The notes under the pieces were generated by a model. The model did not search any database, was not told the origin of the DNA, and worked only from the letters and a program-made list of their open reading frames with translations. 64,000 nucleotides of DNA, from assembly GCF_000024005.1 (NCBI RefSeq), contig NC_013132.1, forward strand, positions 8,488,001-8,552,000, in the 5' to 3' direction. Origin of the DNA: Chitinophaga pinensis DSM 2588 (lineage in GTDB: Bacteria > Bacteroidota > Bacteroidia > Chitinophagales > Chitinophagaceae). The position numbers and the translations under genes are program-made. Of this stretch, positions 4,104 to 49,702 are shown piece by piece (the first letter of the stretch is position 1; each line of letters starts with the position of its first letter).

Positions 4104-5147
4104 ATGAAACTACAATTTTATAAATCAGCAGCCCTGCTGGGCGCACTATGCCTTCCGCTCTGCCTGTTAGCACAGCAACCTGCAAAGGATACAGATCATG
4201 TCGTGAGTAAAGAAGATGCTCATGAAATTATCGGGAAAATCAGCAAACAACTGGAAGAAGGTTATCCGTTCCCGGAGATCTCTAAGAAATATATTGCCAC
4301 CATGAAAAGCCAGGAAGCTAAGAAAGCCTATCAGGACCTTACGCCGGCGAAACTGGCCTGGAAGATCACCGACGACCTGCGTGGAACGCATAAAGATGTG
4401 CATCTCACCATTTTCCACAACAAAGATTATTACGAACAACTGACCCGGTCTTTCTCCAATACCCGTACGCCTGAAGACGACAGACTGGAACTTGAAAGAA
4501 AACGTCAGAACAACTATGGCTTTGATGCAGTGGAACTGAATAAAAAAACATCTACTGCCTATATCAAGATATCCGGTGGTTTCCATGGCGACCAGGAAGC
4601 ATTTGAAATGGCAGCCAATGCAATGAATATGGCCGCTTATTCCAAAAACATCATCATTGACATCAGAGACAATGGTGGTGGAACCGGTATGATGGGCCGC
4701 TTCCTCGCAGGTTATTTCTTCAATGCCGGCGATGAACGCTACTACCTCCACGGTTATCATAAAGACCGTACAAAAGATATCCAGGAATGGACATATCCTT
4801 TCGTACCTGGTAAAAGAATGCCGGACAGCAAACTATATATACTCGTTAATAAACGCACTGCATCCGCTACAGAAGGTTTCGCCTTTGCATTACAACAGAT
4901 GCACCGCGCTACGATCGTAGGCGATACAACAGCAGGCGCAGGTATCGCAGGTTCAATGATCCCGCTGAAAGAAAACATGGTCGTATTTATGCCTGTAAAA
5001 ATGGTAGCTGCCCCTGGTTCAGAAGAAGGCTGGGAAGGAAAAGGCGTTATTCCTGATGTGGCAGTGAAAGGAGAAGATGCAAGAACAGAAGCTGAAAAAC
5101 TGATCAAAAAAGAACAGGATGATATCGCCGCGGCAAAAACCAAATAG
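4104..5147 (+). CDS. S41 family (IRBP/tricorn-like) serine peptidase, secreted
   Basis: A signal peptide (cut after LLAQQ, about residue 26) precedes a helical N-terminal segment of the S41 N-domain type (about 30-115) and an S41 core (150-330). The core shows DIRDNGGGTG and the nucleophile motif TASATEG with Ser254. In CtpA-type enzymes the catalytic Lys lies 25 residues later. Here that position (279) is Ala, in GDTTAGAG, so the protein belongs to the IRBP/tricorn-like branch, which uses other residues. An upstream THKDVHL may supply the His. No PDZ domain is seen. It shares a transcription unit with the preceding secreted protein and ends at a strong terminator. It probably cleaves peptides in the periplasm. 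Confidence 0.8.
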   Translation: MKLQFYKSAALLGALCLPLCLLAQQPAKDTDHVVSKEDAHEIIGKISKQLEEGYPFPEISKKYIATMKSQEAKKAYQDLTPAKLAWKITDDLRGTHKDVHLTIFHNKDYYEQLTRSFSNTRTPEDDRLELERKRQNNYGFDAVELNKKTSTAYIKISGGFHGDQEAFEMAANAMNMAAYSKNIIIDIRDNGGGTGMMGRFLAGYFFNAGDERYYLHGYHKDRTKDIQEWTYPFVPGKRMPDSKLYILVNKRTASATEGFAFALQQMHRATIVGDTTAGAGIAGSMIPLKENMVVFMPVKMVAAPGSEEGWEGKGVIPDVAVKGEDARTEAEKLIKKEQDDIAAAKTK

Positions 5148-5166
5148 TACTTTCATCTACTGACAT

Positions 5167-5207
5167 AAAAAGAGGGTGTATCAATCGTTTGATACACCCT
5201 CTTTTTT
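5167..5207. terminator. Strong hairpin terminator
   Basis: AAAAAGAGGGTGTATCAA (5167-5184) pairs with its reverse complement ending at 5206, with a 4-base loop and A and T tracts on the two sides. It ends the S41 peptidase transcription unit. It can also serve the leftward PEBP gene that ends at 5256. Confidence 0.85.
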
Positions 5208-10745: not shown

Positions 10746-11588
10746 TCATACCTCTTCAGAGTATTTCATCAGCATTTCCCGCTCCTTTTTGGTCAGACTT
10801 TTCATACCACGTTTATGGATCTTTTCCAGCAGGTAATCAAGATCCTGCTGCTCACCGGCACGTTCCAGGTGATACCTGTCGTCCATATCGTAATCACCGA
10901 CATGCGCTTTGAAATACCGGTTGTCGATAAATAGTATATGCGGACATTTAACGATAATGTAAACGAAAAGTGCGCCCGGGAGCAGAATAGACAATATGGT
11001 GCGATAATTTTCCGCAATTCCTTCGGGTACCATACACAATGCCACGACCATGCCGATCAATGCCCCACCCATATGTGCTTCATGTCCGATATTGTCCCTC
11101 CTGGACTTGATCCCGTAAATGGAGTATAAAACGAATAATGACCCATACGCCCATCCCGGGATGGAAAAGGGGATCCCGAAGAAGCCCAGCCGCATAGCAG
11201 GAAATAAAGCAATAGATGCGAAAATAACCCCGCAAACAGCCCCGGAAGCACCTACAGCGCTATAATCTCCATGGTTCCGGTGAATCAGCAGGGACAGCAG
11301 GTTACCTCCAACCAGGCTGGCAAAATATAAAGTCAGGTAAGCCGTAGGTCCCAGCTTTACTTCCAGACTATTACTAAACAGAAAAAGCGATACCATGTTG
11401 AAAAACAAGTGCATCCAGCTGACATGCAGGAAACCGGAGGTGATCAGTCGCTTGTAGTCCTTTTCAATCAGGATACGATCCACTTCAAACGAATACTTAT
11501 TAAAAAAGGAACGATCCTTTAGTCCTTTGTAAGACACTGCAATGTTTACAACAATCAGTAAGAGGTTAATAAGACCAATGTATGCCAT
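10746..11588 (-). CDS. Rhomboid family intramembrane serine protease
   Basis: A polytopic inner-membrane protease of 280 residues with about six membrane segments in the first 210 residues. The catalytic Ser115 lies in GASGAVCG and the His partner is His172 in HEAHMGG. The oxyanion-side motif HLFFN (His60, Asn64) is also present. The cytoplasmic tail (about 215-280) is charged and ends in KEREMLMKYSEEV. It cleaves transmembrane helices of client proteins; the client is unknown. The gene is alone, and its upstream gap of about 145 bases separates it from the divergent DinB-fold gene. Confidence 0.92.
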   Translation of the reverse strand: MAYIGLINLLLIVVNIAVSYKGLKDRSFFNKYSFEVDRILIEKDYKRLITSGFLHVSWMHLFFNMVSLFLFSNSLEVKLGPTAYLTLYFASLVGGNLLSLLIHRNHGDYSAVGASGAVCGVIFASIALFPAMRLGFFGIPFSIPGWAYGSLFVLYSIYGIKSRRDNIGHEAHMGGALIGMVVALCMVPEGIAENYRTILSILLPGALFVYIIVKCPHILFIDNRYFKAHVGDYDMDDRYHLERAGEQQDLDYLLEKIHKRGMKSLTKKEREMLMKYSEEV

Positions 11589-11734
11589 TCAATGCGGGTT
11601 TTAAAATAACTATAGGGAACGTCAGCCAGATATATCCTTATCCAATATTGCGATTAGTACAAATATATCCAATTCTGCCGTCATGAATTCGCGCTTTCAC
11701 GGAATTTTAATTAATATTAGCAAAAATCGCACCC

Positions 11735-12268
11735 ATGATTTCAAGACCTCAACCCGGCGAATTTATGCCCTACCAGGAAGTATACATTAACAGTGTCGGC
11801 GATGCAGAAGTACCCGCTATCACAGAAGAATTAAAGGACAGTACGTATGCGTTTTTTTCGAAGATACCTGAGGAAAAAGGAAGTTATGCCTACGCTCCGG
11901 GCAAGTGGACAATCAAGGAAACTTTGGGACATATGATCGATACAGAGCGTGTATTTGCGTACCGGCTGATGTGTTTTGCCCGGGGAGAGCAACAGGCGTT
12001 ACCCGGCTTTGAGCAGGATGATTACGTCCTGAACTCATTTGCCAATGACCGCTCCTTGCAGGAACTGGCAAATGAATTCAGGGTGGTACGTGAGTCGACG
12101 ATATACCTCTTACGTAATCTGAAAAAAGAGCAGGAAACAATTATGGGCATTTCCAGCGGGAATCCAATTTCTATAAGAACATTAGCCTATATCATTCCCG
12201 GCCATGAACTGCACCATCTGCGGATACTGAAAGAGCGATATTTACCTGGACTTAATATCCAGGTCTAA
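11735..12268 (+). CDS. DinB family (DinB_2) metal-binding four-helix protein
   Basis: A 177-residue helical protein of the DinB/YfiT-like fold. It starts with [10 protein letters not shown], as many Bacteroidota members do, supporting this start. The three metal-ligand histidines expected of the fold are probably in [10 protein letters not shown] (about residue 69) and [11 protein letters not shown] (about 152-160). Such proteins act in thiol-dependent transfers or detoxification, but most are unassigned. The last 27 bases overlap the 3' end of the opposing phosphodiesterase gene. Confidence 0.85.
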
Positions 12269-38131: not shown

Positions 38132-39421
38132 TTAAAACGCGGGGTCAGGCGGGATGTTTGTATTATCATTCCTTTCTACAAATGGGAATGGTAGCCAGGA
38201 GCGTTTACGTTCAGTTACCGGTCTGTTGAAACGGCGCTGATCTTCAAGTTCCATACCGCTCATAAACAATTCGATGTGGCGGTGTTTATAGATCAGTGCC
38301 AGTAGTTCGTCTTTAGTCGCTGCATCTTCCGCCGGCAGGTCCGCTCCAACACCAAAGGCATCTGCACCTGGCTGTTTGGTCACTACTTTATTCAGTTCTG
38401 TAAGACCATTACCCAGATCGTCCTTACGGGCGTAACACTCTGCCTTGATCAGCGTCATCTCACCTGGCAGGAATACGGGAATACCTTGTGCCAAAGCGGT
38501 ATAAAAGCCTTTTACACCGAATTTAGGGTTCGTACCTCTATTGATATAGAACGGCACACGTTTATCCGCTAAATCAGGCTGTAAACCTACCGGAAGCCCC
38601 ATTGCCGAATCGACTATCTGGTAGATATTGTTGGTAGTGGTTACCAGTGTGAAGATCGGATTGGTGATCACCGTATTATAGTTAAATGTAGAAGTACCAC
38701 TCACTTTATTAGCTGCAGCTAACGCTGTATCATAATCACCGGCAAAAAGCGAATAACGGGCCTTTAATGCATTCAGTGAGTTGACAATATTTACACCGGG
38801 AGGAATATTCGCCCTGAACCCGGCACTGATAGTGTCCTGCGCCAGTACATTCAACGCTCCATTGATAACACGTACCGCTTTTCTATAGCCTTCCTGATTG
38901 GTAATAAAAGGGACATTAGTGCCTATTGTATCAGGTACATTTGTCCAGAACATAGACATATTACCGATCGCCAGCGCTTTAAATAAAGATGCATACGCAA
39001 TCACACCAGTCCGGTAGTTAACGTCCGGAATAATCGCGGCGGCATTATTCAATACCCTGTCTGCATCAAAAATGATCTTATTGGACACCGACCACATACC
39101 TGTCACCACCGCATTGGTGTTTTGCAGACTTGCACCTCCTGCATATAATTGTCCTTCATCGGCATTACCCGCATTCACTACATAGGTTTCTCCTGTAAGT
39201 AAACTACCGGTTGTGATAGATGTATATAGAATACTTGTTCTATTGGCTGTATACCAGTTCTGCAAACCGACTGTCAGATCCGCCAGTGCATTCGGCGAAC
39301 TGATAGCCTGGTCATAAGATGGACCTGAAGGGTCCGCATATTCCTTTTTACAGGAAGCAGCAGTCAACAGTAGCACTCCTGCCAGAAAAGAACGGCTATA
39401 TTTATTGAAATACATTTTCAT
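38132..39421 (-). CDS. SusD/RagB family lipoprotein (second pair of the fucose region)
   Basis: A 429-residue lipoprotein with lipobox LTAASC (about residue 24) and KKEYADPSGPSYD after it. It is shorter than most SusD proteins but keeps the TPR-like helices and the late motif KHRHIELFMSGMELEDQRRFNR near 395. The start at 39421 gives the signal peptide; an upstream ATG at 39535 lies inside the SusC gene and is rejected. The gap to SusC is 19 bases. The end of the message carries a heptamer repeat array and then a terminator. Confidence 0.9.
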   Translation of the reverse strand: MKMYFNKYSRSFLAGVLLLTAASCKKEYADPSGPSYDQAISSPNALADLTVGLQNWYTANRTSILYTSITTGSLLTGETYVVNAGNADEGQLYAGGASLQNTNAVVTGMWSVSNKIIFDADRVLNNAAAIIPDVNYRTGVIAYASLFKALAIGNMSMFWTNVPDTIGTNVPFITNQEGYRKAVRVINGALNVLAQDTISAGFRANIPPGVNIVNSLNALKARYSLFAGDYDTALAAANKVSGTSTFNYNTVITNPIFTLVTTTNNIYQIVDSAMGLPVGLQPDLADKRVPFYINRGTNPKFGVKGFYTALAQGIPVFLPGEMTLIKAECYARKDDLGNGLTELNKVVTKQPGADAFGVGADLPAEDAATKDELLALIYKHRHIELFMSGMELEDQRRFNRPVTERKRSWLPFPFVERNDNTNIPPDPAF

Positions 39422-39440
39422 AATTCTTCGTTTTGATGGT

Positions 39441-42400
39441 TTAGAATCTGGCGCGCAGTGCAACATTATACGTTCTTGGAGCTGGTACGCTACCAAAATC
39501 AATACCGCGCAATACAGTACTCTGACCTGCCGCATTCACTTCCGGATCATATCCTTTGTAGTTATCCCATGAATGCAGGTTACGTCCGCCCACACTTACT
39601 GTGAGATCGCTCAGACCTTTAATTTTACCGATATTATAACTGAGGGATACTTCTCTCAGTTTTACAAAAGAACCATCGTCCACTCTCCACTCCTGGATGT
39701 TGTAGTTACCCGCAATAAATCCACGTGGTAATAAACCCAGGTCTTCCTGTTCAGCCACTTTACCATTATCCACACCCTGTCTTGTTCTGAAGTCAGCATT
39801 GAATACGTCAACACCCTGTACAAAGTCAACCTGTGTATGCAGACTGAATTTTTTATAGGTGAAGTCGTTGGTCAGTGTACCAGTCCAGTCAGGATTCGGA
39901 TCACCAATTTTTCTTTGTAAAGCAGTTACGCCGGTAGTTGGTGGCAAACCTGTATTAGGATCTCTTGCCGGTGTGTAGGAGAACGGTGTGTTCTGTACAC
40001 CTGCTTCTGTTACAGGAATACCGGCAGCTGTTTTCAGCTGGTTACCACTGGCGTCACGTGCAAAGAAAGTACCGTAGAAGAAGCCAATCGGCTCACCATT
40101 GGCAATCGCAACCGGTGCACCACTCACCGTTGAATACAGGATGATAGACTGTCCGATGTCGATTGCTTTGTTTCTGTTACGGTTGAAGATAGCCGTCATA
40201 TCCCAGTTGAAGCTCTTTGTTTTCACCGGCACTACATTCAATACTACTTCAAAACCTTTGTTAGAAAGAGACCCGATATTATCAAGACGGGTGCTGTAAC
40301 CTTGTGTAGGTGCAATTGCACGTGCGATCAGCAGGTCTTTTACCTTTTTGGTGTAGTAGTTCACAGAAAGGTTGATGCGGTTATTCGCAAAAGCCATGTC
40401 TGTACCGAACTCCAGTTCTTCCTGTCTCTCAGGTTTGATATCCGGGTTGGTGTAAGTGGTCGGAGATGTAAACGAAGCCGCACCTACAAACGCCATCGCT
40501 TTGTAGGTATTGAAACGTCCATAAGCAGGGATCCCTGTCAGGTTACCCGACTGACCATAAGCAGCCCTGAGTTTGAACAGGTTCCACCAATTGGACACAC
40601 CCAGATCTTTCCAGTAATCTGTACCTGACAACACATAGCTACCACTCAGTTTAGTATAGATCTGATTACGTTCATCCTGACCAAATACAGAAGAACCATC
40701 ACGTCTTAATGCACCAGTTACAAACAACTGATCACGGTATTTGAAGTTCTGCTGAATGAACTGACCAGAGATAGATAGTTTGGTTCGTTCATCTGTACCT
40801 GGTATCAGTGTAGCTGCACCACTTACGGTTTGCACAAATGGTGGTAAACCTCTACCCTGTTGCAGTGAGTAATGCACATTCTGATACTGCAAAGAATAAC
40901 CTACCTGTGTTACAGATGACAGGTCCGGCGTGATCTGCGCATTATAAGTCGCATTGATATCGTGGTTGATCAGGAAAGAATTATTAACACCGGTGCTCGC
41001 ATAACCGTTCTGCGTAGGATCCAGGTTAGCGCCGCCGCCGAAAAAGGACAGGCTTACATTATAAGCGAAAGGGGGAATGAAGGTAGTACCATCCTGGCTA
41101 TAGTTATCAATACCCATATGATAATCTATCGTCAGGTTTTTGAACGGCGTCAGTTTTAAACCTGCACCGGTGATAATCCTGCTGGTCTGTTGTTGTTGTT
41201 TAAAATCTTCAATGATAGAAACCGGGTTTACACGACCGCGCTCTCCGACTGCCACCAGGTTACCCAACGCATTTCTTTGTTGCAGATCGTAATAGTTACC
41301 GATGATGGTTACTGCATTCGTTGGAGAGAAGAAAGAGTTACCATCTGGTTTCTCGTTTGTCTTACTGTAGATATAATTTACAGAAGCATTGAAGCTCAGC
41401 CATTTGTTCAACTCCTGATCCAGGTTCAGCCGGAAACTGTAACGGTTGAAATCTGTATTTCTTACAATACCCTGATTGTACAGATAACCCGCAGATGCAT
41501 AATACCTCGTTTTATTCTGTCCACCAGTTACAGATACGTTATTATCAGTACCAACACCTGTGCGGAAAATATAGTCCTGGTAGTCATAACGCTGTATCGC
41601 AGTAGTATTGGTGATAGTCGGTGTCAGAATGGTCTGGGTAGACACATCCGGGGTACCGCCAAACTTTACCGGCGCCTGGTTCACATCCAGTTTCTTACGC
41701 AGCTCGTTTACATTGAAGCTGGTAGAGAAATTCACTACAGGAGCACCACCCGCGCCTTTCTTTGTAAAGATCTGTACAACACCGGCGTTCGCTCTGGAAC
41801 CATAGATCGCAGCTGCGGCAGCGCCATTCAGCACTTCTATACGTTCGATGTCAGCAGGGTTGATATCCACCATACGGTTCTGACCAACATTACCTGCAAA
41901 GCTGCCACCTGCATAAGATGCGTCGGCGTTGGTTACACGCGTAGTGGAGTTATCTATAATAACACCATCTATGATGTAAAGTGGCTCAGTAGAACCACTG
42001 ATCGTACTGATACCACGCAGTTTTACAGACATACCACCGGCAGGATCACCGGAGTTCTGTGTAATCTGTGCACCAGCTGTTTTACCCTGCAGGGCAGTGA
42101 GCACGTTAGCAGTAGCGCCTTTACTCAACTCATCTGCTTTGACACTGCTGACATAACTCCCTAACTGTTTTCGGGTAGTACCGATAGAAGCACCGGTGAT
42201 CACTACTTCATCCAGTTTGGATACGGACGTAGCCAGCTGTTGATTCAGTGTATAGGAGCTGGCACTGCCAATCTCCACACTACCTTCCTTCTGTGCAAAT
42301 CCGATACCTGTAAATACGAGTGTGTAACTACCGGGGTTCAGATCAGCATTGATGGTATAGTTACCATCCACCGATGTGGTTGCACCCAGTTTTGTCCCCC

Positions 42401-42563
42401 TGATGGCTACCGTGATGCCGGGTAGCGATGCACCCGTTTCATCTGTTACCTTACCGGACAGCTTTACCTGTGCGAAAGCAGCAACGGCGGTAAAGCACTG
42501 CAGGACCAGCAAAAGCAGCAGATACCTGCACCTGGCAAGCCGGAATAATTGATACATTCTCAT
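39441..42563 (-). CDS. SusC/RagA TonB-linked outer-membrane receptor
   Basis: A 1040-residue channel. The signal peptide (cut after AAFAQ, about residue 32) is followed by a CNA-B domain (about 34-112, LSGKVTDETGASLPGITV), a linker with LDEVVITGASIGTTRKQLGS, and a plug with SVKLRGISTISG and EVLNGAAAAAIYGSRANAGVV. The barrel follows, ending with NVALRARF. No STN domain. Its regulation is not evident: the DeoR gene lies 167 bases upstream on the same strand but its putative operator motif is not seen here. Ligand unknown; the GH29 gene downstream suggests a fucosylated glycan. Confidence 0.93.
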   Translation of the reverse strand: MRMYQLFRLARCRYLLLLLVLQCFTAVAAFAQVKLSGKVTDETGASLPGITVAIRGTKLGATTSVDGNYTINADLNPGSYTLVFTGIGFAQKEGSVEIGSASSYTLNQQLATSVSKLDEVVITGASIGTTRKQLGSYVSSVKADELSKGATANVLTALQGKTAGAQITQNSGDPAGGMSVKLRGISTISGSTEPLYIIDGVIIDNSTTRVTNADASYAGGSFAGNVGQNRMVDINPADIERIEVLNGAAAAAIYGSRANAGVVQIFTKKGAGGAPVVNFSTSFNVNELRKKLDVNQAPVKFGGTPDVSTQTILTPTITNTTAIQRYDYQDYIFRTGVGTDNNVSVTGGQNKTRYYASAGYLYNQGIVRNTDFNRYSFRLNLDQELNKWLSFNASVNYIYSKTNEKPDGNSFFSPTNAVTIIGNYYDLQQRNALGNLVAVGERGRVNPVSIIEDFKQQQQTSRIITGAGLKLTPFKNLTIDYHMGIDNYSQDGTTFIPPFAYNVSLSFFGGGANLDPTQNGYASTGVNNSFLINHDINATYNAQITPDLSSVTQVGYSLQYQNVHYSLQQGRGLPPFVQTVSGAATLIPGTDERTKLSISGQFIQQNFKYRDQLFVTGALRRDGSSVFGQDERNQIYTKLSGSYVLSGTDYWKDLGVSNWWNLFKLRAAYGQSGNLTGIPAYGRFNTYKAMAFVGAASFTSPTTYTNPDIKPERQEELEFGTDMAFANNRINLSVNYYTKKVKDLLIARAIAPTQGYSTRLDNIGSLSNKGFEVVLNVVPVKTKSFNWDMTAIFNRNRNKAIDIGQSIILYSTVSGAPVAIANGEPIGFFYGTFFARDASGNQLKTAAGIPVTEAGVQNTPFSYTPARDPNTGLPPTTGVTALQRKIGDPNPDWTGTLTNDFTYKKFSLHTQVDFVQGVDVFNADFRTRQGVDNGKVAEQEDLGLLPRGFIAGNYNIQEWRVDDGSFVKLREVSLSYNIGKIKGLSDLTVSVGGRNLHSWDNYKGYDPEVNAAGQSTVLRGIDFGSVPAPRTYNVALRARF

Positions 42564-42730: not shown

Positions 42731-43477
42731 TTATAAAATCTGAATACCCTTTTTCCTGTATGACTGCAATTTCTTAGAATCGGGAGGCAGCTCGGTAATT
42801 AATACATCGATCTCTTCTGCATCACAGATCTTTAATTGTTCTGATGTGTCGATCTTTTCTGAAATAGACAATACCACCACCTTCTTGGCAGTGCTGATCA
42901 TAGCTCGTTTTACCTGTACAACGTCCCAGTCATTGTCTGTCAGTCCGTCTTCTGCGTCTATTGCGTTATTACCCAGAAAGCACAGATCCGCTTTGATCAT
43001 TTTTATCTTTGAAATCGCTTCTCCCCCTACGGTGATCTTAGATCCTTTGGATAATTTATCCCCTATCACAATTACTTCTATGTTCGGATGATTCGCATAT
43101 TCAAAAGCAGCAGGCAGGCTAACGGTAATAAAAGTAGCCTGCAGATCTCTCGGCAGTACCCGCGCCAGTTCGGCAATAGTAGTACCACCTGTAGTTAATA
43201 CAAACATGCCGTCATGTATAAGCTGAACGGCTTTTAATGCAATGGTCTTTTTATCTTCTACGGCATATACATCCTGGGATGCAATACCCTGATGAAATGA
43301 ATTCGATAACGCGCCGCCATGTACTTTGATGATCTTTCCCTCCTGCGCCAACTCTGCAAGATCACGACGGATGGTATCTTCTGATACCTGTATCTGTTCG
43401 CTGAGATGGGAAGACAACACCTTGTTGTGCAGGTTTACCTGGTGAAGTATATAAGCGAGGCGTTCTTCCTTTAACAT
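42731..43477 (-). CDS. DeoR family transcriptional regulator of the MurNAc/GH9 locus
   Basis: A 248-residue repressor-type protein. The N-terminal winged helix is clear (ERLAYILHQ, VSEDTIRRDLAEL, KVHGGAL). The rest is the DeoR sensor domain, a sugar-phosphate isomerase-like fold with TTGGTTIAELA, GGEAISKIK and LGNNAID. The start at 43477 (MLKEERLAY) is used; a longer frame begins at 43519. It follows AnmK by 117 bases and probably senses a phosphorylated sugar from that pathway, such as MurNAc-6-phosphate or GlcNAc-6-phosphate. A TGCAAAAAAACGCA site upstream points to self-regulation. Confidence 0.9.
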   Translation of the reverse strand: MLKEERLAYILHQVNLHNKVLSSHLSEQIQVSEDTIRRDLAELAQEGKIIKVHGGALSNSFHQGIASQDVYAVEDKKTIALKAVQLIHDGMFVLTTGGTTIAELARVLPRDLQATFITVSLPAAFEYANHPNIEVIVIGDKLSKGSKITVGGEAISKIKMIKADLCFLGNNAIDAEDGLTDNDWDVVQVKRAMISTAKKVVVLSISEKIDTSEQLKICDAEEIDVLITELPPDSKKLQSYRKKGIQIL

Positions 43478-43514: not shown

Positions 43515-43528
43515 TGCAAAAAAACGCA
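43515..43528. promoter_or_regulatory. Candidate DeoR operator upstream of the DeoR gene
   Basis: TGCAAAAAAACGCA lies 38 bases upstream of the DeoR start codon and matches the TGCAnAAAAACGCA motif found three times between the symporter and GH9 genes. It is flanked by TTTC and GAAA, so the wider element TTTCTGC/GCAGAAA is also an inverted repeat. Confidence 0.5.
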
Positions 43529-43539
43529 GAAAACAAAAT

Positions 43540-43598
43540 ATAAACCCGCATTTTTTTGCTTCTTTAATGCAGGTTTCCAGAAAACAGTGCGGGTTTAT
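43540..43598 (-). terminator. Weak hairpin at the end of anmK
   Basis: ATAAACCCGCA (43540-43550) and TGCGGGTTTAT (43588-43598) are perfect 11-bp inverted repeats, but the loop is 37 bases long. The second arm covers the anmK stop codon. It may attenuate read-through into the DeoR gene rather than stop it fully. Confidence 0.35.
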
Positions 43599-44788
43599 GC
43601 AGGAAATGATATCTTACCCATGGTAACAGCAGGCATTCCTGGCCTACCAAAGTTGATGCCTTCGCCTGCTATCGCTTCATTAGCCAGTATTGCAAACAAT
43701 ACCGCCTCTTTTGCATCTCCGGCTATACCCAGTTCTCCAGTAGTTCGCAACTGTAATCTTGGCAAACGTTCTTTTATCCATCCCATCAGTAATGGGTTGT
43801 GTGCGCCGCCACCACTGGCGTATACCGCATAATCACTATCTTCGCGTAACACACTCTTCAGTGCATCCGTAATCGTATCTGCACTGAAACGGGTCAGGGT
43901 AGCCAGCATATCATAAGGTGATATCTCATTGGTACCACTTTTCAGTTGTGCTTGTTGTACATATGCTTTGCTGAATAATTCAGGTCCTGTCGTACGTGGA
44001 AACGGTTCTTTAAAGAAGGAATTATCCTTGAGGGCTGATAATAACTTTTCATCTACAACACCCTGCTTTGCAAACAATGCATCCTTGTCATATTCCACCT
44101 GGAAATACGTTCTTGCAAAAGCATCCAGTAAAGTATTACCCGGCCCTGTATCTGTTACAAAAACACCGGATGCTGCCAGATCTCCTGGTAAAAAAGTGAA
44201 GTTGGCAATCCCTCCCATATTCAACATCACCCTGTCTTCTCCCTGCCTGGAAAACAGACAATAATCTCCATACAATGCCAATGGAGCGCCTTCTCCACCT
44301 GCTGCTATGTGCTTCTGCCTGAAATCGCTGAAGGTGATAATACCCGTCTTTACAGCAATATGATCTCCATCCACAATTTGTAAAGTAGCGTTCGGGAAGT
44401 CCGGCAACTGATGTAATATCTTCGGACTATGATAAACCGTCTGCCCATGTGATGCGATCAGATCTACTTCCTTCGGAGATATTCCCCATTCAGACAAACA
44501 TTCCAATATCCACTTTGCGTGCAGATCGGCCAGCCAGGGATGAAGCAGACAAAGTTGCTGAAAAGGAATAGTGTCTTTTGCGAACACTTTCCTGATTGCA
44601 TCTTTCACGGCTACCGGGTAAGTCACCGTGTCAAACTTTTCCAGTGTAACACGTGTCTCCATTCCGCTGCCGCTGATCGCACATAATGCCACATCCAATC
44701 CGTCCAGCGAGGTACCTGACATCAGTCCGATGATACGTCTTACCGGCTTTTCCGCAATTGTAAATAGTTGCCGTAGATTGCTGTTCAT
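43595..44788 (-). CDS. anmK: Anhydro-N-acetylmuramic acid kinase
   Basis: Converts 1,6-anhydro-MurNAc, the product of cell-wall turnover, to MurNAc-6-phosphate with ATP while opening the anhydro ring. At 397 residues it is of family length. Marks are LMSGTSLDGLDVAL (about 20-33), LIASHGQTVYHSP near 113, NMGGIANFT near 192, and TDTGPGNTLLDAF near 213. It is followed closely by no other enzyme gene but is preceded by murQ with only 5 bases between, so substrate flows directly from AnmK to MurQ. Confidence 0.95.
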   Translation of the reverse strand: MNSNLRQLFTIAEKPVRRIIGLMSGTSLDGLDVALCAISGSGMETRVTLEKFDTVTYPVAVKDAIRKVFAKDTIPFQQLCLLHPWLADLHAKWILECLSEWGISPKEVDLIASHGQTVYHSPKILHQLPDFPNATLQIVDGDHIAVKTGIITFSDFRQKHIAAGGEGAPLALYGDYCLFSRQGEDRVMLNMGGIANFTFLPGDLAASGVFVTDTGPGNTLLDAFARTYFQVEYDKDALFAKQGVVDEKLLSALKDNSFFKEPFPRTTGPELFSKAYVQQAQLKSGTNEISPYDMLATLTRFSADTITDALKSVLREDSDYAVYASGGGAHNPLLMGWIKERLPRLQLRTTGELGIAGDAKEAVLFAILANEAIAGEGINFGRPGMPAVTMGKISFPA

Positions 44789-44793
44789 ACTGT

Positions 44794-45594
44794 TTATTTT
44801 CTGCCTTCAATGGCCGCTCTTACACTGCCTTTTTCTGCTATCAGCTGACGAGCCGTAGCCTCGTCTACATTCAATTCACTCATCACCATCCGCGTTGCGC
44901 GATCCACCAGTTTATGATTGCTCAGCTGCATATCTACCATCTTATTCCCCTTTACCCTTCCTAACTGTATCATTACTGAGGTAGAGATCATATTCAGTAT
45001 AAGTTTCTGTGCGGTACCAGATTTCATGCGGGTACTGCCGGTCAGAAACTCTGCACCTACTTCCGCTTCTACAGGATATTGTACCTCAGCTGCCAGCGGA
45101 CTCCCCACATTACAGGTAACACATCCGGTGACAATACCTCTCTCCCTCATTGCCTTTACACCACCAATCACATAAGGCGTTGTGCCTGATGCAGCGATAC
45201 CTATGACTACATCTTTCTCATTAATATGATAATTATCCAGGTCTTTTGCTGCCTGTTGCGTATCATCTTCTGCAAACTCTACAGCCTTCCGGATAGCCGT
45301 ATCGCCTCCTGCGATAATACCTATGACCATTTCATGCGGCACGCCAAATGTCGGCGGACATTCGGACGCATCCAGTATACCTAAGCGACCGCTGGTACCT
45401 GCTCCTATATAAAACAGGCGACCTCCCTGCTTCATCTTTTCAACTGTTGCAGTAACCAGTAATTCTATTTGTGGAATTGCTTTTGCCACTGCCAGCGGAA
45501 CCGTGATATCTTCACTATTGATCCCTTCCAACAGGGCGCGAACACTCATCTTCTCCAGATTATTAAAATGGGAAGACATTTCTGTAGTAAGCAT
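44794..45594 (-). CDS. murQ: N-acetylmuramic acid 6-phosphate etherase
   Basis: Splits the lactyl ether of MurNAc-6-phosphate to give GlcNAc-6-phosphate and D-lactate. The SIS-fold signature FYIGAGTSGRLGILDASECPP (split at residues 61-81) includes catalytic Glu78. Glu109 in VEFAED lies 31 residues on, the same spacing as Glu83 and Glu114 of the E. coli enzyme. The phosphosugar-binding parts GIAASGTTPYV and STRMKSGTAQK are present. It is 266 residues, a little shorter than E. coli MurQ. It lies between the symporter and anmK genes in one operon. Confidence 0.95.
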   Translation of the reverse strand: MLTTEMSSHFNNLEKMSVRALLEGINSEDITVPLAVAKAIPQIELLVTATVEKMKQGGRLFYIGAGTSGRLGILDASECPPTFGVPHEMVIGIIAGGDTAIRKAVEFAEDDTQQAAKDLDNYHINEKDVVIGIAASGTTPYVIGGVKAMRERGIVTGCVTCNVGSPLAAEVQYPVEAEVGAEFLTGSTRMKSGTAQKLILNMISTSVMIQLGRVKGNKMVDMQLSNHKLVDRATRMVMSELNVDEATARQLIAEKGSVRAAIEGRK

Positions 45595-45618: not shown

Positions 45619-47100
45619 TCAGGATACCAGACCTCTTTTTTGAAAATCTTTAGAGCACAGCCACAACCCGATGAACATGAGCAAGCCGTTGATGATTAAC
45701 AATTCCAGACCTATTTTATAACCGCCGAAGATATACTGCTGGAAGTACTCCAGACCAAAGCATAATATTGGTGCAGCAATCGCTATCTGTGGTACCATAT
45801 CGTCATTTACCGTACGTTTTGTCAGAATGCCAAATGCAAATAAACCAAGTAAAGGTCCGTATGTATAAGAAGCTACTTTCAGAATTACAGAGATCATACT
45901 TGAGCTGTCAATCTGCCTAAATATCAGCACGACAACCATGAATATAACGGTGAATCCAAGATGTACAACCCTTCTGATATTCTTTTTCTGCTGCTCAGAT
46001 CTTGGTCTGCCAGTTTGCAGATTCAGTATATCAATACAGAAAGAAGATGTCAATGCAGTGATTGCACCATCCGCACTCGGGAACAATGCAGAGATCAGTG
46101 CAATGATGAAAATAATAGAAATGGCCGGTGGCATATACCGCGCATCCAGGGCTAATGTCGGGAATAACTTATCTGCGGATGCTGTTACGTTAATCTGCTC
46201 TGCAAACAGGTATAACAGTCCGCCGAGGAACAGGAAGAGGATAATCACGACCACAAAGATCACACTCAGGGTCATCACATTTTTCTGTGCATCTACCAGT
46301 CTTTTTACGGATATGTTCTTCTGCATCATTTCCTGGTCCATACCAGTCATAGTGATGGTTATAAACGCCCCACCCAGTACCTGTTTCAGAAAGAAGTGCG
46401 GACTATTCGGATCCCAGAAGAAGATCTGGGACATACCTTTGTCACTCATTGCCTGCAGACTTGTACCCACACTCAGGTCCAGGTGATTCAGGATATAGAT
46501 GATACAGATCACCAGGCCAGACAGCATACAGGTCGTCTGTAAGGTATCAGTATATACAATTGTCTTCACCCCTCCTTCAAATGTATACAACAGTATCATC
46601 ATCAGAATGATCAGTGTGGTGAGCCAGAAAGGAACAGTGAACTGATTACCGAAAGTCTCCTGCAACAGATTCTGAAGGATATTTACAACGAGATATAAAC
46701 GTGCGGTCGCTCCCAGTGTCCTGGATAATATGAAAAAGGAAGCTCCCGTTTTATAAGACCTGACGCCGAAACGCGTATTGAAGTAATTATAGATAGAAGT
46801 CAACTGAAGCCGGTAATACAAGGGCAGTAATACAAACGCGATCACTACATACCCCAGCATATTGCCGAAAGCTACCTGTAAATACGAGAATGCTGTTTTC
46901 CCCACATCTCCGGGCACACTCACAAAGGTCACTCCGCTCAGCGAGGTACCAATCATACCAAAGGCTACCAGCATCCAGTTACTGTTACGGTTGCCTATAA
47001 AGAAGGATTCATTATTGGAATTTCTGCCGGTATACCAGGCTACCACTAATAATATAAAAAAATATGCAATGACGATCGAGAACAAGAGGCCTGCTGTCAT
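45619..47100 (-). CDS. Sodium:solute symporter (SSS family), probable amino-sugar uptake
   Basis: A 493-residue inner-membrane carrier with about 13 membrane segments. Family marks include an early GRNSNNESFFIGNRNSNW region, GMIGTSLSGVTFVSVPG (about 53-69) and PPAISIIFIIALISALFPSADGAITAL (split, about 325-350). It is the first gene of the leftward operon with murQ and anmK (24-base gap), so it most likely imports MurNAc, anhydro-MurNAc or a related sugar; the same layout occurs in other Bacteroidota. Substrate is inferred from context only. Confidence 0.9.
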   Translation of the reverse strand: MTAGLLFSIVIAYFFILLVVAWYTGRNSNNESFFIGNRNSNWMLVAFGMIGTSLSGVTFVSVPGDVGKTAFSYLQVAFGNMLGYVVIAFVLLPLYYRLQLTSIYNYFNTRFGVRSYKTGASFFILSRTLGATARLYLVVNILQNLLQETFGNQFTVPFWLTTLIILMMILLYTFEGGVKTIVYTDTLQTTCMLSGLVICIIYILNHLDLSVGTSLQAMSDKGMSQIFFWDPNSPHFFLKQVLGGAFITITMTGMDQEMMQKNISVKRLVDAQKNVMTLSVIFVVVIILFLFLGGLLYLFAEQINVTASADKLFPTLALDARYMPPAISIIFIIALISALFPSADGAITALTSSFCIDILNLQTGRPRSEQQKKNIRRVVHLGFTVIFMVVVLIFRQIDSSSMISVILKVASYTYGPLLGLFAFGILTKRTVNDDMVPQIAIAAPILCFGLEYFQQYIFGGYKIGLELLIINGLLMFIGLWLCSKDFQKRGLVS

Positions 47101-47133: not shown

Positions 47134-47211
47134 TGCATAAAAACGCACATTCACGTTTAAATATAAACACAAAAACGCAAAATATCTAGTATTTGTATGC
47201 AGAAAAACGAA
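47134..47211. promoter_or_regulatory. Three evenly spaced candidate DeoR operators
   Basis: TGCATAAAAACGCA (47134-47147), AACACAAAAACGCA (47166-47179) and TGCAGAAAAACGAA (47198-47211) lie at exact 32-bp steps, three turns of the helix, between the divergent symporter (start 47100) and GH9 (start 47249) genes. The outer copies end 34 to 38 bases from the two start codons. A fourth copy precedes the DeoR gene. The motif and its spacing fit cooperative repressor binding that controls both directions. Confidence 0.6.
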
Positions 47212-47248: not shown

Positions 47249-49702
47249 GTGTATATGAAAAAGCTGCTCTTGCTGGTATTATCCACATTTATCAGCCATC
47301 CCCTTCTTGCGGACCTGATACGTATCAATCAACTCGGATATGCCCCCCGAGGCAGCAAGGTTGCGGTCTGGTGCAGTAAAGAACAAGATACATTAAAATA
47401 TTTTGAACTGGTCAACGCCGTCACCGGCAAAGTGGAGTATAAAGGAAAGGCAGGCAGGGCCGCAGGTGCTTATGGTCCGTTCACCCAAACTTCCCGGCTG
47501 GATTTCTCCTCTTTCACGTCGCCCGGGCAATATTATCTGCAAACCGCAAAAGCAAAATCCCCCGCCTTTCTCATCAGCGACAATGCTTATAAAGGAGCAG
47601 CCGACTTTTGTCTGCGATATATGCGTCAGCAACGTAGCGGTTTCAATCCTTTCCTGAAAGACTCCTGCCACACACATGATGGCTTTCCGGTATACAGTCC
47701 GGATACCACATTTATCCCCGTTTCGGGAGGCTGGCACGATGCATCTGATTATCTGCAATACGTCACCACTTCCGCTAACGCTACCTGGCACCTGCTGGCT
47801 GCCTGGCGTGACTTCCCAGGGGTATTTTCAGACTCATTACAAGCAAACGGACTCGCTGGCGGTAATGGTATAGCCGATGTATTAGACGAGGCAAAATGGG
47901 GCCTGGATTGGCTCATTAAAATGAATCCACGGGACGACAGGATGTATAATCAGATAGGGGATGACAGAGATCATCAGGGAATGCGTATTCCTAAACAGGA
48001 TACAAACTTTTATGGCCGCGGACTCGAACGTCCTGTCTATTTCTGTATCGGCGAACCTCAGGGATTGCTGAAATATAAAAACCGGGCTACCGGCACAGCT
48101 TCCACAGCCGGGAAATTTAGCAGCTGCTTCGCCCTCGGACAACAGTTATTCACAAACATCTATACCAGCTATGCTGATAGCCTTGGTCATAAGGCCAAAG
48201 CCGCCTATGCTTTCGGTATGGCCAAACCAGGCGTTTGTCAGACCGCCCCTGGACGCTCTCCCTATTTCTATGAAGAAGATAACTGGACAGATGATATGGA
48301 GCTGGCAGCCGCTTCCCTGGGAAAAGAATACCTCTCCAATGCGCTGGACTTTGCCCACCAGGAACCAGTCACTCCCTGGTTAGGAAAAGATACTGCCCGC
48401 CATTATCAATGGTATCCCTTCATTAACCAGGGCCATGCAGAACTTGCCAGACAAGTGAAAGGTCCGCAGAGAGATACACTGATCCGTTATTACCGGGAAG
48501 GAATAGACCGGGTATGGCAGAAAGCTTCCAGGAATGCATTTTACCGGGGTATTCCATTTATCTGGTGTAGCAATAACCTCACAGTTGCCTTTGCCATACA
48601 ATGTTACTGGTACCGGGAGCTGAGCGGTGATAATACTTATCTCCAGCTTGAACAGGCCTGCTTCGACTGGATCTTCGGATGTAATCCCTGGGGTACTGCT
48701 ATGGTATATGGATTACCCGCACACGGCGATACACCTACAGATCCCCATTCCTCTTTTACACACCTGAAACAGTATCCTATTGACGGCGGACTGGTAGACG
48801 GTCCGGTATATACCAATATCTTCAAAAACCTGATCGGTATCCGGTTGCAGGATGTGGATGAATATGCCGCATTCCAGAGTGACCTGGCCGTATACCACGA
48901 TGACTATGGCGATTACAGTACCAATGAACCGACGATGGACGGTACCGCGGTACTGATCTATCTGCTGGCAGCACAGGAACATGCTGCAAGAGAAAAAGGA
49001 TACACAGTTACACAAGGTGGTATCACCAGGATGGATAGTTCACACAAGGAAATCGCGCTGGTTTTTACGGCAGATGAATTCGGAGAAGGACTATCATCCA
49101 TCACACAAACTTTAAAACAGGGAAAGCTCAAAGGTTCCTTTTTCTTCACAGGTAATTTTTACCGCAATCCACTCTTCAGATCAGGTATTCAACGATTGTA
49201 TAAAGAAGGGCACTATCTCGGCCCACATTCAGATAAACACCTTTTGTATTGCGATTGGAAAAAAAGGGATAGTCTGCTGATAACACAGCAACAATTCACA
49301 AACGATATGCACAACAACCTCGTTGTAATGCAGGAACTTGGTATCGATACCGGTAAAGTGAACTGCTTTATTCCTCCCTATGAATGGTGGAATGACAGCG
49401 TTGCTGCCTGGTCGGCAAACCTAGGCTTACAGATTGTCTGCTTTACACCGGGTACCGGTAGTAATGCAGATTATACATATCCTGAAATGGGAAAAACCTA
49501 CAAAAGCAGCAAAACGATCATTCAGTCTGTAAAGACTTTTGAGCAGCAGAGAGCGGGAAAACTGAATGGCGTTATACTGCTGATCCATGCAGGGACAGAT
49601 CCCCGGAGAAGGGATAAACTGTACCTGCATTTACAACAGCTGATTAAATATCTTAAACAAAAAGGATATCGCTTTAAAAGGGTCGATGAGGGTACTATCT
49701 GA
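47249..49702 (+). CDS. Bifunctional GH9 glycosidase - polysaccharide deacetylase (NodB-like) fusion, secreted
   Basis: An 817-residue exported protein. After the signal peptide (cut near LLADL, about residue 22) comes the Ig-like GH9 N-domain (about 24-105, RINQLGYAP). The GH9 (alpha/alpha)6 barrel (about 110-585) has GGWHDASDY near 160 (base Asp) and the acid Glu in STNEPTMDG near 559. The last 210 residues are a NodB-type deacetylase: FTADE near 605 in place of TFDD, HSDKH near 660, FIPPYEWW near 708, and LIHAG near 778. Some GH9 enzymes are exo-glucosaminidases, so a deacetylate-then-cleave action on chito-oligosaccharides or peptidoglycan glycans is plausible. It is divergent from the MurNAc operon. 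Confidence 0.88.
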   Translation: MYMKKLLLLVLSTFISHPLLADLIRINQLGYAPRGSKVAVWCSKEQDTLKYFELVNAVTGKVEYKGKAGRAAGAYGPFTQTSRLDFSSFTSPGQYYLQTAKAKSPAFLISDNAYKGAADFCLRYMRQQRSGFNPFLKDSCHTHDGFPVYSPDTTFIPVSGGWHDASDYLQYVTTSANATWHLLAAWRDFPGVFSDSLQANGLAGGNGIADVLDEAKWGLDWLIKMNPRDDRMYNQIGDDRDHQGMRIPKQDTNFYGRGLERPVYFCIGEPQGLLKYKNRATGTASTAGKFSSCFALGQQLFTNIYTSYADSLGHKAKAAYAFGMAKPGVCQTAPGRSPYFYEEDNWTDDMELAAASLGKEYLSNALDFAHQEPVTPWLGKDTARHYQWYPFINQGHAELARQVKGPQRDTLIRYYREGIDRVWQKASRNAFYRGIPFIWCSNNLTVAFAIQCYWYRELSGDNTYLQLEQACFDWIFGCNPWGTAMVYGLPAHGDTPTDPHSSFTHLKQYPIDGGLVDGPVYTNIFKNLIGIRLQDVDEYAAFQSDLAVYHDDYGDYSTNEPTMDGTAVLIYLLAAQEHAAREKGYTVTQGGITRMDSSHKEIALVFTADEFGEGLSSITQTLKQGKLKGSFFFTGNFYRNPLFRSGIQRLYKEGHYLGPHSDKHLLYCDWKKRDSLLITQQQFTNDMHNNLVVMQELGIDTGKVNCFIPPYEWWNDSVAAWSANLGLQIVCFTPGTGSNADYTYPEMGKTYKSSKTIIQSVKTFEQQRAGKLNGVILLIHAGTDPRRRDKLYLHLQQLIKYLKQKGYRFKRVDEGTI

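Follow-up and report, generated by a model that had tools for sequence, protein, structure and literature searches.

The DeoR-family regulator encoded beside murQ and anmK in Chitinophaga pinensis DSM 2588 probably reads helically phased arrays of a short half-site, GCA. Judging from sequence comparison, it would thereby regulate its own gene and, in one clade, jointly repress the operon for a sodium:solute symporter (SSS), MurQ and AnmK and the divergent gene for a secreted GH9 enzyme fused to a CE4-like deacetylase, with a cell-wall sugar as the signal for release. The arrays, their conservation, their phasing and their co-localisation with the regulator gene are direct observations. The window analysed here is a stretch of 64,000 nucleotides (positions 8488001–8552000) of a genome consisting of a single contig of 9,127,347 bases. 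The original prediction had placed three 14-bp sites at an exact 32-bp period, starting at 47134, 47166 and 47198, and had assigned the neighbouring genes to one repressor acting on a single system.

The minus strand carries a run of genes for SSS, MurQ, AnmK, the DeoR-family regulator, a SusC-like receptor, a SusD-position gene and a GH29 fucosidase, and the gene for the GH9 enzyme with its NodB/CE4-like domain is divergent from the symporter gene on the plus strand (Table 1). Sites 1–3 lie in the 148-bp gap between the symporter gene, whose ATG is at 47100 on the minus strand, and the GH9 gene, which starts at 47249 or 47255 on the plus strand. The nearest solved chain to the symporter is 5nv9, a putative sodium:solute symporter. 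The SusD-position gene gave no match in a Pfam/NCBIfam search at 1e-3; of the SusC/SusD pair expected in a polysaccharide utilisation locus, the SusC member is recognised by a family model (TIGR04056). The regulator matches PF08220 with 54.8 bits (cut-off 21) and PF00455 with 133.4 bits (cut-off 31.8), and none of the 11 listed named NCBIfam DeoR equivalogs (GlpR, AgaR, SrlR, UlaR, DeoR and others) scores above its curated cut-off, the best being GlpR with 165.3 bits against 300, followed by AgaR with 128.1 against 260. The DeoR of a near relative (G036:C2) is 99% identical. All 16 aligned orthologues begin at the ATG at 43477 rather than at the TTG at 43519 that opens the longest reading frame, and the fourth predicted site, at 43515, is thus upstream of the deoR gene, as had been proposed.

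Table 1. Genes and putative operator elements of the locus, in coordinates of the window.
Feature	Position	Strand	Remarks
SusD-position gene	38132..39535	-	named from position alone
SusC-like TonB-dependent receptor, downstream of deoR	39441..42563	-	TIGR04056 above cut-off
DeoR-family regulator	42731..43477	-	HTH_DeoR and DeoRC domains; start set by alignment
Operator array upstream of deoR (putative)	43515..43550	+	GCA at 43516, 43526, 43548; offsets 0, 10, 32
Second, opposing array, deoR–anmK gap	43557..43600	-	overlaps anmK stop codon; two overlapping array-pattern matches
AnmK, anhydro-N-acetylmuramic acid kinase	43595..44788	-	NF007149 706.2 bits, cut-off 616
MurQ, MurNAc-6-phosphate etherase	44794..45594	-	TIGR00274 311.2 bits, cut-off 302
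Sodium:solute symporter (SSS)	45619..47100	-	PF00474
Operator site 1 (putative)	47134..47147	+	TGCATAAAAACGCA; GCA half-sites at 47135, 47145
Operator site 2 (putative)	47166..47179	+	AACACAAAAACGCA, 2 mismatches; one GCA half-site at 47177, left half degenerate
Operator site 3 (putative)	47198..47211	+	TGCAGAAAAACGAA, 1 mismatch; GCA at 47199, CGAA variant at 47208
GH9 + NodB/CE4-like polysaccharide deacetylase fusion, signal-like N-terminus	47249..49702	+	PF00759, PF02927, PF01522

The first 14 bp of the array before deoR, 43515–43528, read TGCAAAAAAACGCA, and the exact 14-mer TGCAnAAAAACGCA occurs at two places in the 9.1-Mb genome, both at this locus (43515 and 47134), with no occurrence of a reversed control. 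The segment TGCAnAAAAACG, said to be shared by three copies, is indeed found at 47134, 47198 and 43515 and is lacking at 47166. Within the window, 8 matches with at most two mismatches were found; 100 shuffles averaged 2.04, and not one of them reached 8. Four of the 8 lie beyond the named sites, either elsewhere or in the opposing array. At one mismatch or fewer the whole genome holds 25 places against 12 for the reversed control, so that many single-mismatch sites are due to chance. Across 79 Chitinophaga genomes the exact 14-mer occurs at 45 places in 32 genomes (reversed control, 17), of which 16 were assigned to the DeoR locus by comparing coordinates.

A scan of the window genome with the array pattern gave 12 matches and 4 for the reversed control, the 12 being divided between 4 at the DeoR locus (3 distinct arrays) and 8 elsewhere. 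Among the latter, L270, L271, L273, L274, L275 and L276 are inside or at the edge of open reading frames, and L272 overlaps two frames lacking a Pfam match that precede a dehydrogenase gene. The last, L277 (1501–1543; G000:C1:8329822), is array-like and upstream of a DUF4964/DUF5127 gene, and may be a chance match.

From the comparison of loci, the putative operator is read as an array of GCA half-sites, all pointing the same way and repeated in phase with the helix, and the original description of the sites as copies of a 14-mer is accordingly given up. The comparison covers 140 loci, namely 61 from Chitinophaga (window included), taken from 62 DeoR places with at least 61% identity, and 79 named loci, some of which (L191–L193, L195, L196, L198 and L202) duplicate Chitinophaga genomes. 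By shared 8-mers 105 of the 140 are non-redundant, 85 with a DeoR identity of at least 58% and 20 below that value. Conserved upstream of deoR in relatives is GCA-nAAAnnY-GCA, followed by further GCA at helical distances. GCA-N7-GCA is present within 160 bp before deoR in 80 of the 85 loci, where 5.9 are expected from 200 dinucleotide shuffles, and in 5 of the 20 loci of lower identity, where the same procedure gives 0.8. Differences in the recognition helix were considered as a cause of the loss of arrays at distant DeoRs, and none was clear.

Distances between GCA pairs in the 85 loci follow the helical repeat. The 10-bp distance is found in 80 loci; distances of 20, 21 and 22 bp in 42, 21 and 32; 30, 31 and 32 bp in 31, 25 and 46; 40, 41 and 42 bp in 13, 25 and 34; 51 to 54 bp in 15, 18, 13 and 15; and 62, 63 and 64 bp in 12, 14 and 19, against an expectation of 4 to 6. 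Between the peaks the counts are mostly below 10, with 11 at distances of 3 and 50 and 10 at 35, 43, 45, 55 and 60, and GCC and ACG spacings in the same loci show no helical peaks. This spectrum is that of a direct-repeat operator with a 10–11-bp period, as described for RhaR. Because GCA recurs in one direction at helical distances, a 14-bp palindrome or a single site is ruled out, and the 32-bp period of the window is three helical turns. GCA-TGC and TGC-GCA distances share the helical phase, which may stem from TGCA overlaps and from the opposing array. That array occupies the remainder of the deoR–anmK gap, and TGC-N7-TGC was found in 36 of 40 loci with a DeoR identity of at least 75%, a count that includes same-genome duplicates and carries no shuffled control. 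A fixed Bacteroidota-type -7 box between the half-sites was also considered and is present in only 9 of 80 loci.

The window and 20 relatives (L068–L087), together referred to as the window clade, share the gene order SusC-DeoR-AnmK-MurQ-SSS/GH9. Between SSS and GH9 the window has GCA at offsets 0, 10, 42 and 64 and CGAA at 73–76. When the SSS/GH9 gap is aligned for 20 of these 21 genomes (L087 left out), invariant columns number 32 of 42 within the sites and 20 of 112 in the rest of the gap (Fisher P = 2.6e-11, computed by column and ignoring relatedness; since the genomes are related, neither columns nor loci count as independent events). In the adjoining symporter coding sequence 31 of 60 columns are invariant. 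Sites 1 and 2 retain GCAnAAAAACGCA and AAAAACGCA, respectively, unchanged in all 21 genomes, and site 3 retains GCAnAAAnnCGAA in 20, being broken in L087; GCA is invariant where adjacent bases drift. The exact 32-bp spacing is a property of the window: in the 20 relatives sites 1 and 3 are 63 bp apart in 15, 64 in 3 and 65 in 1, with site 3 broken in the remaining L087, and the conserved feature is a spacing of about six helical turns.

The genes that carry an array were surveyed using a strict array on either strand within 220 bp upstream. Linked counts omit three duplicate window-clade genomes (L191–L193), except for SusC, and samples of 20 were chosen from 35 unlinked symporters (59–70% identity) and from 44 GH9 genes away from DeoR. 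In the window clade an array precedes deoR in 21/21 loci, SSS in 21/21 and GH9 in 20/21. By contrast, it precedes none of the 20 sampled unlinked symporters and 1 of the 20 unlinked GH9 genes, the exception (L188) being transcribed divergently from the gene of a DeoR paralogue. These two counts rule out a regulon that would take in every SSS and GH9 gene of the genus, and since the sampled unlinked genes are nearly devoid of the array, it travels with DeoR genes and not with the enzymes, the neighbours of DeoR varying by clade. The expectation that the motif would recur near the target genes in relatives held within the window clade and failed for the sampled unlinked symporters and GH9 genes.

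Other linked arrangements were also covered. None of 5 other DeoR-linked symporter genes has an array of its own; in these loci SSS lies on the same strand downstream of deoR, so that the deoR array may serve it. GH9 directly upstream of deoR on the same strand, in 7 other genomes, likewise has no array of its own (0/7). Where anmK is divergent from deoR the array is in the common gap in 13 of 14 loci, a count that overlaps that for deoR, whereas window-clade AnmK, inside the SSS operon, has an upstream array in 1 of 21. MurQ has one in 3/21 window-clade loci and 0/5 other linked loci. In loci without a DeoR of at least 56% identity MurQ has one in 4/6 (L130, L258, L262 and L263), and each of these four holds a DeoR of 48–55% identity within the same locus. 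The most constant neighbour of DeoR is a SusC-like gene downstream, present in 56 of the 61 loci from Chitinophaga and in 57 of the 79 named ones, and an array of its own before that gene was found in 0/21 window-clade loci, which rejects this placement for the clade, and in 1/36 elsewhere.

Several further arrangements were noted. In G026, G027, G028, G046, G055 and G071 symporter genes occur some 7 kb downstream of deoR. A TTGAC/GTCAA-type palindrome precedes many unlinked symporter orthologues (among L152–L156, L158–L162 and L164–L167), suggesting that these genes have a different regulator. GH9-CE4 genes away from DeoR (L172, L173, L176, L177, L179, L181 and L183) are often directly upstream of genes orthologous (72–75%) to the SusC of the window and to the gene following it. 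In L188 (G010:C1:1532000-1545000, positions 5038–5180) a GCA-N7-GCA array lies between a GH9 gene that lacks the deacetylase domain and a divergent DeoR paralogue of 48% identity, apparently an independent GH9–DeoR pairing. The three MurQ loci L258, L262 and L263 are from Saprospiraceae, unclassified Bacteroidetes and Lewinella, and have array-like sites upstream of MurQ with DeoRs of 51–55% identity.

That arrays follow regulator genes raises the question of which regulator reads them. It is conceivable, but unlikely, that they are read by one or more DeoR paralogues sharing the half-site, the neighbouring DeoR not being the regulator or not the only one. The recognition helix is nearly identical among the paralogues, the same kind of array is present on either strand in 18 of 20 paralogue loci (L128–L147), two of the three paralogues in the window genome have GCA-N7-GCA near their start (L293 and L294; the start of L295 was not located), and some paralogues have MurQ nearby. 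The exact 14-mer, however, occurs nowhere else in the window genome, and arrays at SSS and GH9 are seen only with an adjacent DeoR gene. Paralogues about 49% identical to the present DeoR and divergent from other SusC-like genes (L128, L131, L133, L134, L136–L138, L141 and L142) carry the same kind of array, and the array thus marks a DeoR subfamily. At L293 (G000:C1:1098449) GCA occurs at three successive helical turns before the start of the paralogue.

A reading without any specific protein, in which the repeats are phased A-tracts that produce curved promoter DNA, is the least probable and is given very little credence. Predicted curvature of the 80 arrays, computed with wedge values, does exceed that of dinucleotide shuffles (mean z 2.18; 47 of 80 above 2), and AAA-AAA distances have the same phase as GCA, with peaks every 10–11 bp; but curvature needs no GCA, which is the element kept invariant amid drifting bases, and the arrays track regulator genes and are nearly absent at unlinked SSS and GH9. 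A different sign of regulation, with DeoR binding the arrays and activating, or both activating and repressing, is in our view distinctly improbable. A DeoR-family activator does exist (NCBIfam NF007720, 'L-fucose operon activator', to which DeoR gives a sub-cut-off match). Nevertheless, the deoR array in the window flanks TATATTTTG, which resembles a -7 box, and the LacI- and DeoR-family sites of C. bescii, which lie in 5' UTRs or over promoters, are read as the sign of a repressor (PMC8579813).

The array distribution and the conservation of the sites together indicate that the neighbouring DeoR most likely autoregulates and, in the window clade, co-represses. In the proposed mechanism, DeoR subunits would read one-way GCA half-sites on one face of the helix (at 10, then 21–22, 31–32, 42, 52 and 63 bp), and the A-tracts between half-sites would bend the DNA. 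The array before deoR would mediate autoregulation of deoR and probably also of the SusC-like gene behind it, and in the window clade a second array, in the divergent region, would silence SSS-murQ-anmK and the secreted GH9-CE4 alike. DeoR binding is inferred, and repression rather than activation is deduced from the DeoR family and the position of the deoR array. The idea of one repressor and a single system thus keeps its support within the window clade, from the array counts at deoR, SSS and GH9 and from the tie of anmK to deoR described below, but in a weaker form, because the array follows DeoR and not the enzymes.

The link to cell-wall sugar comes from AnmK and MurQ, which convert anhydro-MurNAc to MurNAc-6-P and this in turn to GlcNAc-6-P and lactate. 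The sugars of this pathway are consequently the natural effector candidates, and the release signal would be a cell-wall breakdown sugar (anhydro-MurNAc, MurNAc-6-P or GlcNAc-6-P). AnmK, single-copy in the window genome (E up to 1e-40), is found at the same threshold in 29 of the 79 Chitinophaga genomes and adjoins the deoR orthologue in 28; in the remaining one, G025, it lies away from that orthologue, and this genome has a second DeoR place. In L120 (G046) the AnmK match, at 10888–12080, is in two overlapping pieces. In the family outside the genus, none of 9 sampled anmK loci adjoins a DeoR by tblastn; approached from the DeoR side, anmK is divergent in 7 non-Chitinophaga loci of the 79 named. 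MurQ occurs in 78 of the 79 genus genomes, and that of the locus is a second copy, the other copy in the window genome being 67% identical to it. Of 10 genus MurQ copies at 48–53% identity, eight (48–51%) have a gene for a DeoR paralogue no more than 10 kb away (in G002, G007, G009, G010, G025, G026 (L129), G028 (L130) and G055), which indicates that the pairing of MurQ with DeoR arose, or was kept, more than once. Most named loci have no MurQ or AnmK match in the stretch examined, and the SusC-like gene behind DeoR is less than 35% identical to that of the window in 37 of the 79; both findings speak against a purely cell-wall role.

GH9 matches at E up to 1e-120 were found in 72 genomes of the genus, 53 having the fused form by query coverage (one of these genes is cut by a contig end) and 19 having GH9 alone or a piece. 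All 47 aligned sequences, from which L189 was left out owing to an internal stop codon, carry the GH9 motif residues D164, D167 and E560; of the 44 with the second domain, all have H660 and H664, and 43 have D609. By sequence, most solved relatives are endoglucanases, and no match to an exo-glucosaminidase was decisive. The fusion may deacetylate and then cleave cell-wall or chitin fragments. A CE4 enzyme of Agrobacterium acts on anhydro-MurNAc ends (PMC10838918). A more far-reaching proposal, which we consider doubtful, is that A-tract/GCA-phased DNA, as much as seven turns of the helix, is wrapped by a DeoR oligomer into a small nucleoprotein spool that shuts the divergent promoters, and that it governs a dedicated anhydro-MurNAc route in which the secreted GH9-CE4 would take a NagZ-like role outside the cytoplasm, followed by SSS import, AnmK and MurQ. 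In E. coli the corresponding glucosaminide cleavage, by NagZ, is cytoplasmic.

Several known systems can be compared with this locus. The E. coli murQ gene is accompanied by MurR, a regulator of the RpiR family (model name NF012026). The present DeoR resembles MurR as a local regulator of a MurQ operon and differs from it in family and in operator. In Tannerella forsythia, a sodium symporter whose gene lies with murQ and murK takes up MurNAc (PMC5790795), and the locus resembles murTKQ as a Bacteroidota operon with a sodium symporter beside MurQ (PF00474 and TIGR00274 above cut-off); here, unlike there, AnmK (NF007149) replaces MurK, and DeoR and GH9-CE4 genes are linked. The word 'regulator' is absent from the main text of the Tannerella paper (PMC5790795). 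AxgR of Caldicellulosiruptor is likewise a local regulator of the DeoR family whose putative site is a tandem repeat, but for another sugar and in another phylum (PMC8579813).

RhaR, also of the DeoR family, provides the closest likeness of operator: its sites are direct repeats of 10–11 bp, four of them in tandem in a 38-bp gel-shift fragment, and for one site gel shift demonstrated binding of RhaR and release by a sugar of the pathway, L-rhamnulose (PMC3870299). Like RhaR, the present regulator is of DeoR type and stands with a sugar pathway and a direct-repeat array of that period, and the operator type is therefore already known. Where the RhaR half-site is given as TCGAAA, the half-site here is GCA with A-tracts, and at some loci the arrays are as long as six or seven turns of the helix; the setting here is Bacteroidota and the pathway looks like that of a cell-wall amino sugar. 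Relative to RhaR, the putative operator sequence, the array length and the pathway would be what is new.

Among the matches listed from the open-licence literature, none describes a DeoR-type regulator for the MurNAc genes of Bacteroidota, and within the same scope the present DeoR would, if the more far-reaching proposal is true, be the first described regulator of cell-wall-sugar use in this phylum. The arrays and their neighbouring regulator provide a concrete and cheaply testable candidate pair for Bacteroidota cell-wall-sugar catabolism, and a clean example of a regulator whose putative operator occupies a divergent promoter region in one clade and is absent from that region in other clades. 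The phased spectrum over at least six turns in 85 loci is, in addition, an unusually sharp imprint, at the level of sequence, of the way in which a DeoR oligomer may contact DNA.
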